DNA of 64,000 bases. It comes from an uncultured Bacilli bacterium. Its GTDB lineage: Bacteria > Bacillota_I > Bacilli_A > RF39 > UBA660. Under the pieces are notes generated by a model that saw only the letters and a program-made list of their open reading frames with translations, was not told the DNA's origin and searched no databases. Positions 2,987 through 34,532 of the stretch are shown here, piece by piece. The translations under genes were made by a program, and so were the position numbers. The stretch spans positions 62,001 to 126,000 of the forward strand of contig CASTSB010000001.1 of assembly GCA_949451605.1 (NCBI GenBank), read 5' to 3'. Within the stretch, counting starts at the first letter, position 1. Each line of letters starts with the position of its first letter.

Positions 2987-4300
2987 TTGAAATATTATTG
3001 TATTGGTATAAAAGGAACAGGAATGTCTACTTTAGCTCAAATTCTATTTGATCTTGGAAATGAAGTAAGTGGTTATGATGATGCGAAGGGTCATAAGTTT
3101 ACTCAAGTAGGTTTAGAAGAGCGAGGAATAAATATATATTATGGCCATGATCATGAGATTGATAAGGATACAATTGTAACTTATAGTGTTGCCTTTAGTG
3201 AAGATCATCCTGAGATGAAAAGGGTTAAAGAGTTGGGGCTTACTATTAAAAAATATAATGAAATAGTAGGAGACGTTATAGATATGTTTTCTACAATTGG
3301 AGTAAGTGGAACTCATGGTAAGACAACAACTTCTTCTATTATTAGACATGTATTAGAACAAACTGTTGGCTGTAATTATTTTATTGGGGCAGGAGATGGA
3401 CATGCTAGTAAAGAAAATGAATATTTTGTAGTTGAAAGTGATGAATTTAATAGACATTTTACTGCTTATCATCCAAGATATTCTGTTATAACTAATATAG
3501 AAGCTGAGCATATGGAAATTTATAAAGACGTAGATGATATTAGAAATACATTTGAGGTATTTGCTAACCAAACTAAGGATTTAGTTGTTGCTAATGGAGA
3601 TAATGCTGAAGTTAGAAATATTAATTATAAAACTAAGGTTAAATTTTATGGGTTTAATTCCGATAACGATGTAATAATAAAGAATATGGAATTACTAGAG
3701 AATGAATCTAAATTTAGTCTTTATACTAAAGAAAATAGTTTAATTGGAGATTTTTCTATTCCTTTATTTGGTCGTCATATGGTGATGAATGCAACTGCAG
3801 CTATCATTATATGTGGGAATTTAGGGATTGATTTAGCTGATATATCTAATAACTTAAAGAATTTTAAAAATGCTGAAAGAAGATTTGCGATTGAGGAGTA
3901 TAAGGGAAGCATAATAGTTGATGACTATGCTCATCATCCTACAGAAGTTAAAGTAACACTTGAAGGAGTAAGACAAAAGTATCCAGATAAAAGGTTAGTA
4001 GTAGTTTTTGCTCCTAATACTTATTCAAGAACTAAAGATTTTACTCAGGAATTTATTGATGCATTTAAAGTAGCTGATAAAGCTTATCTTACTGAGATTG
4101 ATTGTAATAGGGAAAGACCAGAAGATTATCCAGGGATAACATCTAGTATAATTACTGATAAATTAGATGGAGGAGAAATTATCTCTACAGATACTATGGA
4201 TAAGCTTAAAAATGAGAAAGATTCAGTTGTGTGCTTTATGGGATGTGCTTACGTAGATGGATTAATAAATGCTTATAAAAAAGTTATAGATAATAATTAA
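2987..4300 (+). CDS. murC: UDP-N-acetylmuramate--L-alanine ligase MurC
   Basis: MurC adds L-alanine to UDP-MurNAc, the first peptide step of peptidoglycan precursor synthesis in the cytoplasm. The 437-residue protein starts MKYYCIGIKGTGMSTLA, the MurC N-terminal Rossmann motif. The ATP-binding GTHGKTTT lies near residue 110 and the C-terminal VDDYAHHPTEV motif is present. I chose the TTG at 2987: the GTG at 2978 lies within an extended Shine-Dalgarno stretch (AAGGGAAGTGATT), and initiating at the TTG gives ideal spacing. It has its own promoter and terminator. MurC shows the cell makes peptidoglycan, unlike true Mollicutes. Confidence 0.95.
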   Translation: MKYYCIGIKGTGMSTLAQILFDLGNEVSGYDDAKGHKFTQVGLEERGINIYYGHDHEIDKDTIVTYSVAFSEDHPEMKRVKELGLTIKKYNEIVGDVIDMFSTIGVSGTHGKTTTSSIIRHVLEQTVGCNYFIGAGDGHASKENEYFVVESDEFNRHFTAYHPRYSVITNIEAEHMEIYKDVDDIRNTFEVFANQTKDLVVANGDNAEVRNINYKTKVKFYGFNSDNDVIIKNMELLENESKFSLYTKENSLIGDFSIPLFGRHMVMNATAAIIICGNLGIDLADISNNLKNFKNAERRFAIEEYKGSIIVDDYAHHPTEVKVTLEGVRQKYPDKRLVVVFAPNTYSRTKDFTQEFIDAFKVADKAYLTEIDCNRERPEDYPGITSSIITDKLDGGEIISTDTMDKLKNEKDSVVCFMGCAYVDGLINAYKKVIDNN

Positions 4301-4328
4301 GAGGACTTGTTTAAATCCTCTTTTTTTG
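4299..4328 (+). terminator. Intrinsic terminator of murC
   Basis: AAGAGGA (4299-4305) pairs with TCCTCTT (4316-4322), followed by a run of T residues. Confidence 0.8.
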
Positions 4329-4358
4329 TTAGACTTATATTATAATAGAGGTAAAAGT

Positions 4359-6762
4359 ATGAAGTTAGAGAAAATAATAACTAGTAAAAATTTATCACTA
4401 ATTATTGTGATGTTTGTAATGGCATTGAGCTGTGCTTATGCATCTTTTAATAGTGTTTTAAATGTAACTGGGACTGTTGCAGATGTTAGGATTAAAAGCG
4501 ATATAAGAATAACAGGAGTTAGAGCATCAGAAGATTATAACAAAACAATTGTTCGGGGGGGGGGTACTTTTACCCAATAGTGATTCAACAGTCACATATG
4601 CAGTAGATATAACTAATACTGGAAACCAAGAGATGAAGATAGCATCTATTACAGGACTTCCAGATAATCTAGAATATATGGTAACAAATTATAACATTGG
4701 AGATAAGCTTTGTGAAAGTGACAAGTGTTCTTTAGGTTTTACCAAAACAATTCTATTAACTTTAAAATATAAAGATGGAGGCTACTCTCAGGCTTCAACA
4801 TTTAATTTAACTTTAAACTTTGATTTTAAACAGTTTACTAATAGTTATTTAAAAATTGCGAATACTGCGAATGGTGATACTGTAAGTTTTTTTGATACTG
4901 ATATTATAAAAAATAAGATTGAATCTGTTACGATAAGAAATACAGATGAAGTTTCTGAAAATGCAATAGATTTTAATGGTAAAAAATATTTTGACGTTTC
5001 TAATGATCAAACTGATAGTATAAAACTATATGCAGAAGATATGGATTCTAATGGATTATACGAGATATATATTGGACAGGATGGTGGAGTTAAAGCAAAT
5101 CCTGATTCAAGTAATCTTTTTAGATATCTTAATAAGGCTACTACGATAGATGTGGCCAATCTTGATACAACTGGAGTTAAATATATGAGCAATATGTTTG
5201 AACTTTGTCTTGCTTTAAAAACTTTAGATGTTAGTAATTTTAATACCTCAAATGTTACTAGTATGTTTATGATGTTTAAACATTTAGCAAACCTTAAATC
5301 ATTAGATTTAAGTAATTTTAATACTGGAAATGTAAGAAATATGGGTTATATGTTTTCTAGTTGCCGAAATTTAGAAGAATTAAATGTAACAAGTTTTGAT
5401 GTATCTAAAGTTACTAGTATGAGTAGTATGTTTTCTTCTTGTGGAAAGATTAAGTCATTAGATTTGTCCTCTTTTGCTCCAATTTCTGTTAACTCTATGA
5501 GTACAATGTTTTATAGTTGCGAAGCTCTAACGGACTTAGTTTTCTCTAATTTTGATACAAGAAATGTTTTATCAATGGAAAGAATGTTTTATGATTGTCT
5601 TAGTTTAACTTCATTAGATTTAACTTCTTTTAATACTATAAATGTTCAAGATTTTTCAGAAATGTTTCATTCTTATCCCTCACATAATATGTTATTATCG
5701 GAAATTAGGGGAATAGAGAAATTCAATACTTCAAGTGTGACAGATATGAGTAAAATGTTTTCGAATTGTAAAAATCTAATTTCTCTTGATCTTTCAAGTT
5801 TTGATACATCTAATGTCAAGGATATGTCTTATATGATTGCATTAGACACAAATACTGGTCTTTCAAATACTAATTTAACGGAGCTTATTTTATCTGATAA
5901 GTTTGCTACATCAAATGTGGAGAATATGGCTTATATGTTTGCTGGAGCGAGTAAACTTACAAGCATTAATCTTTCAAGTTTTGATACATCTAAAGTAAAC
6001 AATATGGAAGGAATGTTTTATCATTGCCACGGATTAACATCTTTAGATATAAAAAACTTTAATACCTCTAGTGTAACAACTATGAAAAGTATGTTTTGTC
6101 ATTGTAATTCTTTAGTTAATTTAGATATTACCTTATTGAAGACTAGTAATGTTACAGATATGTCAAAGATGTTTGATTGTTGCCAAAAATTGACTAGTTT
6201 GGATTTTAGCAATTTTAATACTTCTAAAGTAACGAATATGCATGCTTTATTTAACTCGTGTTCTTCATTATCCGAATTGGATTTAACGTCATTTAAGACT
6301 AATTTAGTAACAGATATGGGTTCCATTTTTAGATTCTGTAGTTCACTTAAAAATATTAATTTAAGTAATTTTAACACTGCAAATGTAGAAAATTTTAGTA
6401 GTATGTTTGAATTGTGTACTACTTTAAAAAATATAGATTTGAGAAATATTGTTACACCAAAAGCCACTAACATGTCCTCAATGTTTAATAATTGCAAATC
6501 TTTATTAAGCGTTGATTTAAGAAATTTTAATACAAGAAAGGTAACAAACTTTTCAAATATGTTTTATAATTGCAGGAGTGTAACTGATATTTATATTAAT
6601 GGAGTTGATTTCTATTTTGATAGTGCAACTACTGTTGTAAATATGTTTGCTAATTGCCCTAGTACTGGAACAGTATGGTTTGTAGATCTATCTCATATGG
6701 AACAGTATGCTAATCTTCCAGATTGTAATGGAATTGGTGAATTAAGAGGAGAAGTTGCTTAA
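4359..6762 (+). CDS. BspA-like DUF285-repeat surface protein, interrupted at a poly-G tract (apparent phase-OFF state)
   Basis: Two open frames are separated only by a single-base frame difference at ten consecutive G residues (4555-4564). The first frame runs from the ATG at 4359 (ribosome binding site GAGGTAA) and stops at 4580. The second continues without interruption to 6762. With nine Gs the two join into one 800-residue protein. It would have a hydrophobic signal/anchor segment (LSLIIVMFVMALSCAYASF), a beta-rich region with VTYAVDITNTGN, and then about 19 leucine-rich-like repeats of roughly 24 residues. The repeat core is SLDLSxFNTSNVTxMSxMF, with a C near each end: the DUF285/BspA type known from adhesins and mycoplasma surface proteins. 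No LPxTG motif is visible, so attachment is probably by the uncleaved N-terminal segment (inference). Confidence 0.85.
4555..4564 (+). repeat. Poly-G tract G(10), candidate phase-variation switch
   Basis: Ten consecutive Gs occur in an AT-rich genome, inside the coding region of a surface protein about 65 codons after its start. Slipped-strand mispairing at such tracts is an established phase-variation mechanism. At ten Gs the frame reaches a TAG at 4578; nine or twelve Gs would open the complete frame. A sequencing or assembly error in the homopolymer is the main alternative. Confidence 0.8.
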
Positions 6763-31979: not shown

Positions 31980-34532
31980 ATGAAACGCAGTGAAGTAGAT
32001 AGAAATAAATTAAGTCCTATGATGCAACAATATATGGAAATTAAGGATAAATACGATGATAGTATTATCTTTTTTAGACTTGGGGATTTTTATGAAATGT
32101 TTTTTGAAGATGCCATAACTGCATCACGTGTACTTGAACTTACTTTGACTGGTAAACAAGCAGGTCTTAGTGAAAGAGTTCCTATGTGTGGAATTCCTCA
32201 TCATGCATACTCAACTTATGTTGATACACTTATCGATAAAGGATATAAAGTGGCAATTGTAGAGCAAATAGAGGATCCTAAAGAAGCAAAAGGCATGGTT
32301 CAAAGAGATGTTGTGCAGGTAATAACAAAAGGAACTAGAATAGATTCTAATATTGATAGTAAGAATAATAATTTTATTGCGAATATTTATGCGTTTTCAT
32401 ATTGTTTTGGGATTAGTTATATTGATATTTCAACTGGAGAAGTTTATTGTTCTTTGGTTGAAGGTGAAAGTGATAGAATAATTAAAGAAGTTATACGACA
32501 TAACTTTAAAGAGGTAATTGTAAATAATGATATAGATCGCGAAATAGTTGATAATTTAAGGACTCAACACGAAATATTAGTTACAATAACTAAAGATGAA
32601 CTTGATGATAAAAATTACGAATATATTTATAAGGATATAGAAGATGTTAGGCTAATAAGCACCTTAAAACATTTGCTTTTCTATATATTAGATACTAAAA
32701 AAGGTGATATGCATCATTTACAAAGAGCTCAGATTTTAAAAGGAAGCGAGTACTTAGAATTTGATGTAAATACTAAAAAGAATTTGGAACTTGTTGAGAC
32801 TCTAAGAAATAGAGAAAGACAATATAGTTTATTATGGCTTCTAGATAAATGTAAGACTGCGATGGGATCAAGATATTTAAAAAATAATATTGAAAATCCC
32901 TTAACTGATAAAGATATGATAGAAAGACGTTATGATATAGTTTCTAAGCTATCTACAGAATTTATCTTAAGAGACGATTTAATAAAAGAATTATCAAATG
33001 TATATGATTTAGAGAGATTATGTGGACGTATTACTTATGGTAATTTAAATGCTAAAGATCTATTACAATTAAAGAGTTCTATTTCTTCACTTCCTAGAAT
33101 AAAAGAAATTTTAGAAGAACTAAAATATGATAAAAAAATAGAAACATTTGAAGATTTATACTTATTACTAGATAAGGCTATTTTAGAAGATGCTCCATTT
33201 ACTTTACATGAGGGAAGATTAATAAAAGAAGGCTATAATGAAGAACTAGATCAATTAAAAAGTATAAGTAGTGGTTCAAAAGATTATATTTTGACTTTAG
33301 AAAAGGAAGAAAAAGAACGTACAGGAATCAAAAACTTAAAAGTTGGTTTTAATAAGGTTTTTGGTTATTATATAGAAGTTTCTAAAGGTCAAGTTGAGCT
33401 TGTAAAGGAAGAATATGGCTATGAAAGAAAACAAACACTTGCTAATTGTGAGAGATATATAACTAAGGATTTAAAAGAGAAAGAGAATATTATTCTTGGT
33501 GCTGAAGAAAAAATTATAAATTTAGAATATAAGTTATTTATGGATATTCGCGAAGTTGTAAAAAGATATGTTAGCAAACTTCAAAAAGTAGCTAGAATTA
33601 TATCTGAGGTAGATATGTTACAGTCTTTTTCAATTGTTTCTGATAATTATAAGTTTGTAAGACCAGAACTTACAACTGATAGAGTAGTAAAAATGATTGA
33701 ATGTAGACATCCAGTTGTAGAGCAAGTAATGAAAGATAAGTATATTGCTAATGATATCATTATGGATAAAACTACTGATATCTTGCTTATTACTGGCCCT
33801 AATATGGCTGGAAAGTCTACTTATATGCGTCAATGTGCTATTACTGTAATAATGGCTCAAATAGGTTGTTTTGTACCATGTAAAAGTTGTTTAATGCCAA
33901 TTTTTGATAAGATATTTACAAGAATTGGAGCTAGTGATGATTTGGTATCTGGAGAATCTACATTTATGGTAGAAATGAAAGAAGCTAATTATGCGATTAG
34001 TGAAGCAACTGAAAATAGTTTGATTTTATTTGATGAGTTGGGTCGTGGAACTGCGACTTATGATGGAATGAGTCTTGCTCAAGCAATTCTTGAATATATT
34101 CATGATAGTATAAAGGCAAAGACTATGTTTTCTACACATTATCATGAACTTACTTCGCTTGAAAAAGATTTAAAGCATTTGAAGAATGTTCATGTATCAG
34201 CTATTGAAGATAATGGACATATTACGTTTCTTCATAAAGTAAAGGCAGGGGCAGTTGATAAGAGCTATGGTATTCATGTAGCTAGTCTTGCTAAATTACC
34301 TAAATCTCTAATTGATCGTGCAGATGATATTTTAAATGTTTATGAGAAGAAAAATATTAAAAAAGAAACATTTACTCAAACTTCATTATTTGAACTTACT
34401 GAATCTGAATCAGTAGAAAAAGTAGATCCAATTAGAGAAAAACTTAAGGAACTAAATCCGCTTGAAATGACGCCTATGGAAGCTCTTAGCTATTTATATG
34501 AGTTAAATAAAGAGGCAAAGGAAAAGAAATAA
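31980..34532 (+). CDS. mutS: DNA mismatch repair protein MutS
   Basis: MutS recognises mismatches and recruits MutL. The 850-residue protein has the full domain series: the N-terminal mismatch-contact motif GDFYEMF near residue 36, the connector, the lever and clamp region, and the ATPase with Walker A GPNMAGKST near residues 606-614 and LFDELGRGTATYDG. A C-terminal dimerisation stretch follows. TGATATAAT (31951-31959) and GGTGA precede the start. No mutL is next to it. Mismatch-repair status is relevant to the poly-G tract at 4555, because repair activity sets tract slippage rates. Confidence 0.97.
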   Translation: MKRSEVDRNKLSPMMQQYMEIKDKYDDSIIFFRLGDFYEMFFEDAITASRVLELTLTGKQAGLSERVPMCGIPHHAYSTYVDTLIDKGYKVAIVEQIEDPKEAKGMVQRDVVQVITKGTRIDSNIDSKNNNFIANIYAFSYCFGISYIDISTGEVYCSLVEGESDRIIKEVIRHNFKEVIVNNDIDREIVDNLRTQHEILVTITKDELDDKNYEYIYKDIEDVRLISTLKHLLFYILDTKKGDMHHLQRAQILKGSEYLEFDVNTKKNLELVETLRNRERQYSLLWLLDKCKTAMGSRYLKNNIENPLTDKDMIERRYDIVSKLSTEFILRDDLIKELSNVYDLERLCGRITYGNLNAKDLLQLKSSISSLPRIKEILEELKYDKKIETFEDLYLLLDKAILEDAPFTLHEGRLIKEGYNEELDQLKSISSGSKDYILTLEKEEKERTGIKNLKVGFNKVFGYYIEVSKGQVELVKEEYGYERKQTLANCERYITKDLKEKENIILGAEEKIINLEYKLFMDIREVVKRYVSKLQKVARIISEVDMLQSFSIVSDNYKFVRPELTTDRVVKMIECRHPVVEQVMKDKYIANDIIMDKTTDILLITGPNMAGKSTYMRQCAITVIMAQIGCFVPCKSCLMPIFDKIFTRIGASDDLVSGESTFMVEMKEANYAISEATENSLILFDELGRGTATYDGMSLAQAILEYIHDSIKAKTMFSTHYHELTSLEKDLKHLKNVHVSAIEDNGHITFLHKVKAGAVDKSYGIHVASLAKLPKSLIDRADDILNVYEKKNIKKETFTQTSLFELTESESVEKVDPIREKLKELNPLEMTPMEALSYLYELNKEAKEKK

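Follow-up and report, generated by a model that had tools for sequence, protein, structure and literature searches.

The gene under study lies downstream of a Mur-ligase gene in the window (the whole 64 kb stretch of DNA that was analysed; GC 26.5%) and is split into two reading frames at a run of ten consecutive Gs, about 65 codons from the start codon (Table 1). The 5' frame carries a putative membrane-anchor/signal segment and the first strands of an N-terminal beta domain, and the downstream frame carries the remainder of this domain followed by a DUF285/PARCEL leucine-rich-repeat solenoid. An earlier sequence-only reading of this DNA had noted ten Gs in AT-rich DNA, an early stop in the frame before them, a frame of more than 730 codons after them and no other lesion. 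Reading the sequence anew, we found the tract to occupy exactly 4555-4564 of the forward strand; the frame starting at ATG 4359 ends after 73 residues at TAG 4578-4580, and the frame behind the tract runs through 737 codons with zero stops to a real stop codon at 6762. No inactivating lesion was seen apart from the tract, and comparison with the nearest paralog brought out only an in-frame gap of 30 bases before it. Upstream of the tract, the second frame has a single start codon, TTG at 4549, which lacks both a ribosome-binding site and a signal segment, so that the second frame on its own is unlikely to yield a surface protein. The promoter region of the gene carries no G tract, and hence no switch of the kind in which a tract separates the -35 and -10 boxes. 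The site downstream of the Mur-ligase gene is variable in the genus, a gene with a similar N-terminus being found there in one congener only (G004, L239).

Table 1. Features at the G-tract gene (window positions)
Feature	Position	Strand	Basis and remarks
Intrinsic terminator of the preceding Mur-ligase gene	4300-4328	+	agagga...tcctct stem, then T7; directly upstream of the promoter
Probable -10 box, TATAAT	4341-4346	+	Sequence; nearest paralog has the same promoter
Ribosome-binding site, AGAGG	4347-4351	+	Sequence
5' frame, 73 aa, TAG 4578-4580 in the assembled state	4359-4580	+	Sequence; conserved with paralog N-termini
G10 tract, proposed switch	4555-4564	+	Sequence; interrupted run G4AG5 at the equivalent site in a paralog (L041)
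Downstream frame, 737 codons open	4549-6762	+	ORF reading; PF03382, TIGR02167; purifying selection

Profile searches with the downstream part matched DUF285 (PF03382; E=4.4e-91, 301 bits, cut-off 25) and the PARCEL repeat (TIGR02167; E=1.6e-116, 379 bits, cut-off 30) in 16 stretches, both above the curated cut-offs, which upholds the BspA-like, DUF285-repeat identity given to the protein in the sequence-only reading. The N-terminus of the window protein is a hydrophobic segment, represented in the AlphaFold model of an intact paralog, C15 (mean pLDDT 85), by a helix at residues 12-36 that is modelled there with low confidence. In the model the helix is followed by a beta domain at residues 49-169, by another, small beta region and by an extended leucine-rich-repeat solenoid, and the site equivalent to the tract falls in or adjoins the strand at residues 74-80. 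The OFF product would retain the anchor and lose nearly everything else. Surface display and adhesion of the window protein are predicted. A fold search returned only weak leucine-rich-repeat matches to Toll-like receptors and, for the N-terminal domain, matches to beta-sandwiches, and was uninformative.

The G10 tract is pure and stands far above chance expectation, as is typical of contingency loci. Apart from the tract, the longest run of Gs in the window numbers six, and G7 matches numbered four as against 0.34 in dinucleotide-preserving shuffles of the window, in which four was never attained. Under a first-order chain trained on the window, about 0.03 runs of at least ten Gs would be expected on either strand of the whole genome (1.33 Mb, a draft of 22 contigs), whereas two were observed. 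These two are also the only tracts of eight or more Gs in the genome; each is exactly G10, and both lie at the 5' ends of members of one family of 15 paralogs, the chance of two random sites both falling within the 300-base 5' regions of 15 genes being about 1e-5. The five congeners contain no tract of nine or more Gs, which gives no support to conservation of the tract in the genus and counts against its being a switch. Loss of mismatch repair as the source of long G runs was ruled out: MutS (G000:C1:94010-96508, about 32010-34508 of the window) and MutL are present and intact, as in most relatives, indicating that the genome is not a repair-deficient, homopolymer-rich one. Long pure G tracts thus persist despite mismatch repair, and in this genome they do so only at two surface genes.

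About 15 genes of the genome share the N-terminal domain. The second G10 tract belongs to C15 (L007; G000:C15, 8504-8534, minus strand), in which TTGACA and TATACT are separated by a 19-base spacer containing the tract, an arrangement of the porA type with the G tract between the -35 and -10 boxes; behind this promoter lies an intact DUF285 protein of 848 residues. Two other paralogs carry the same promoter with interrupted runs, G6AG4 in a spacer of 20 (C6_18k) and G5AAG3 in a spacer of 18 (C1_181k). C1_16k (L041:1571-3600; G000:C1:16070 onward), the paralog closest to the window gene, has G4AG5 at the position of the window gene's tract, with identical total length and out-of-frame state. 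An in-frame TGA and no fewer than three additional frame breaks make it a pseudogene. Being interrupted, its run is not slippery: the copy locked OFF decays and the slippery window copy does not. In this paralog family, pure (slippery) and interrupted (stable) forms thus coexist at both coding and promoter positions. Two further paralogs, C6_83k (L044:987; G000:C6:83486) and C4_72k (L043:3620; G000:C4:73119), are disrupted and lack a long G tract, their lesions being one early frame break and one stop after 248 codons. As side observations, a sortase-domain gene lies on the contig of C15 (L007:2927-3736), and C15 and two paralogs share a weak motif, TGTGGATAA, between the -10 box and the start codon.

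Selection on the downstream frame was assessed in the 96 codons directly after the tract. Since the split from C1_16k the window gene has accumulated 7 synonymous changes and 1 nonsynonymous change, as against 6 and 10 in C1_16k over the same codons (Fisher p=0.033), and its branch departs from neutrality (binomial p=1.3e-4); the changes were polarised with six other paralogs, the outgroups being distant (dS near 1) and only 24 changes being assigned. This ratio indicates that the downstream frame is kept by purifying selection, though it is untranslatable from the assembled start codon, as would be expected of a reversible switch and not of an old pseudogene. The frames around the tract, the 737-codon open frame and the selection on it together fit a contingency locus in which changes in tract length alter the expression of an otherwise intact gene.

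Across the bacterial family, tracts of nine or more Gs were found in 162 of 291 genomes, mostly drafts of about 0.9-1.5 Mb. Among 30 such tracts that we sampled, 13 were promoter-like by a strict filter, and by eye about 20 were closely preceded by a -35-like hexamer (TTGAC or similar). The pattern TTGAC-N-G7+-TATAMT occurred in 41 of the 291 genomes and 30 of 150 genera, with up to 27 matches per genome, whereas its reversed form occurred in none of the 291; outside the family but within the same class, the pattern was present in 4 of 131 genomes. A narrow promoter pattern based on C15 had no match in the contigs of genomes other than the window's own. In 140 listed promoter sites most spacers were 18-20 bases long (mode 19) and most tracts G9-G11. 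Where promoters within one genome had identical flanks, 14 of the 20 groups so formed contained more than one tract length, as would follow if the tract evolves more quickly than the sequence around it. Most of the genes lying first behind these promoters encode N-termini of exported or membrane proteins, as judged by eye; among those from other genera are a DUF285 protein whose N-terminus is of the prepilin type (L082) and a BspA-type LRR_5 protein (L106), and a prepilin-like protein is also found behind such a promoter (L107). Coding tracts were found as well. Genes for a family-2 glycosyltransferase (L074) and an Acyl_transf_3 protein (L063) each carry an out-of-frame G9 tract with the next frame open, and these tracts are likely switches of surface sugar modification; in a hexapeptide transferase gene the tract is in frame (L053), and in a gene for a small membrane-anchored protein it lies at about codon 8 (L072). 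DnaA-box-like motifs (TTCCACA/ATCCACA) near the poly-G promoters (L093, L054, L055, L057, L066) were considered and set aside, since 5 of 42 against a background of 2.8%, with intergenic position uncontrolled, is too weak. Two relatives have runs of G22 close to or at the ends of contigs (L068, L059), which may be sequencing artefacts.

We consider it probable that the poly-G tracts form a contingency system shared by this family of uncultured, small-genome gut Bacilli with mismatch repair, acting on surface, prepilin-like, lipoprotein and sugar-modifying genes, placed in promoter spacers more than in 5' coding regions, and reaching about 27 promoters per genome; the window gene would be one switch of the coding type. 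The promoter tracts are the larger finding and lie outside the segment with which the sequence-only reading dealt.

For the window gene itself, that reading had proposed phase variation by slipped-strand mispairing, and this remains the best account: only two G10 tracts exist in the genome, both 5' in one paralog family and one of them in a promoter, the 737-codon frame is intact and under selection, the locked sister copy C1_16k has decayed, and such switches recur across the family. We regard it as highly probable that the gene is a slippage contingency locus, and infer from its sequence that the tract slips and that expression switches with it. The product would be a membrane-anchored BspA-like (DUF285/PARCEL) leucine-rich-repeat surface protein. 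Slippage of DNA polymerase would lengthen or shorten the G10 tract one base at a time. Of the three possible length classes (modulo 3), two would end translation soon after the tract and leave a short anchor peptide, the OFF state that was assembled, and the third would join the frames so that a protein of about 800 residues is displayed (ON). A population would then be a mixture of lengths, of which the assembly gives the majority or consensus state. In C15, tract length would set the spacing between the -35 and -10 boxes and thereby transcription, and coding and promoter switches together could vary the displayed surface repertoire combinatorially.

The gene might also be a recent pseudogene, frameshifted at an accidental G run and dying like its sister, which we consider unlikely. 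C1_16k did decay with the same out-of-frame length, and its disruption together with that of C6_83k and C4_72k, none of which has a long pure tract, indicates that birth and death are frequent in this paralog family, a point that counts against a switch. However, an accidental G10 is very unlikely at this base composition, the sole other G10 of the genome sits in the promoter of a paralog, and the window gene has kept its codons stop-free with a single nonsynonymous change against seven synonymous ones since the split.

Errors in reading homopolymers could likewise have produced the assembled length, the true tract being in frame and the gene simply ON. Indel errors usually fall at homopolymers and the assembly is a draft, but the run of C1_16k also totals ten bases and, being interrupted, is easier to read correctly; moreover, even a tract of another length would be a long, uninterrupted run of Gs of the switch type, and we hold such an error to be very improbable. 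Transcription can slip at long homopolymers, and either this or programmed ribosomal frameshifting could yield the full protein from unchanged G10 DNA, for which it speaks that the out-of-frame length is common to two paralogs. The paralog with the same offset is nevertheless a pseudogene, the tracts of relatives lie mostly in promoters, beyond the reach of recoding, and their coding tracts occur both in and out of frame, so that we give recoding hardly any credence.

Slippage switching is a classical mechanism, and several systems resemble the slippage locus proposed here. In Mycoplasma agalactiae, poly-G switching has been proposed for the PARCEL/DUF285 lipoprotein genes MAG1330 and MAG3260, and PARCEL genes of M. 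capricolum have homopolymer or dinucleotide tracts in their 5' flanks (PMC2996958). The M. agalactiae genes share the repeat family of the window gene (PMC2996958); they encode mycoplasma lipoproteins, whereas the window protein has a membrane anchor and a beta domain and belongs to a non-mycoplasma lineage with MutS, MutL and Mur ligase. Candidatus Mycoplasma girerdii also has a BspA-like multigene family in which repeats switch the reading frame, often with an OFF consensus and minor ON variants in metagenomic reads (PMC5476646); its repeats are mostly dinucleotides and vary in reads, whereas the window gene has a mononucleotide G tract known from the assembly. The pilus genes bbr_0113 and bbr_1889 of Bifidobacterium breve, for which replication slippage at G tracts was measured experimentally and promoter-spacer G tracts are mentioned (PMC9187656), are similar in having a coding G tract in a gene for a surface structure of a gut commensal; they differ in encoding sortase pili, in an actinobacterium, and in that their switching was measured, the window locus being known from sequence. 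The porA promoter of Neisseria meningitidis, in which the length of a poly-G run between the -35 and -10 boxes sets expression (PMC3639595), is the model for C15 and the family promoters, though organism and protein are unrelated and the window gene lacks such a promoter. Searches of the open-access literature brought up no account of poly-G switching for this lineage. The sequence-only reading had called a homopolymer switch of such an adhesin in this kind of bacterium notable; it is less exceptional than that, given the precedents of repeat-driven switching in BspA-like/PARCEL genes of Mycoplasma (PMC5476646, PMC2996958) and of G-tract frame switching in Bifidobacterium pili (PMC9187656). 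As far as the open literature searched shows, a paralog family with a translational switch in one member and a transcriptional one in another would be new, and the extent of poly-G switching across this family of uncultured gut bacteria appears undescribed there.

It is chiefly through assembled metagenomes that these gut residents have become known, and their dealings with host immunity or phages have hardly been described. Existing metagenomic reads allow slippage switches to be followed without culture, since the distribution of tract lengths would show what fraction is ON or OFF in each person and how it changes with time. If the family pattern is true, poly-G phase variation would be a major contributor, hitherto unreported, to surface variation among bacteria that share their class with the mycoplasmas yet retain mismatch repair, and many surface genes that look "frameshifted" or split in these assemblies would be switches rather than pseudogenes.

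A GTDB-wide scan with the promoter pattern returned at least 120 stretches. Among the matches listed (L112-L231) are uncultured Clostridia and Bacilli, Saccharibacteria, Candidatus Ancillula, Streptobacillus, a Helicobacter and others, indicating that the poly-G promoter architecture extends beyond this family, and the listed matches often stand ahead of genes with signal-peptide-like N-termini.
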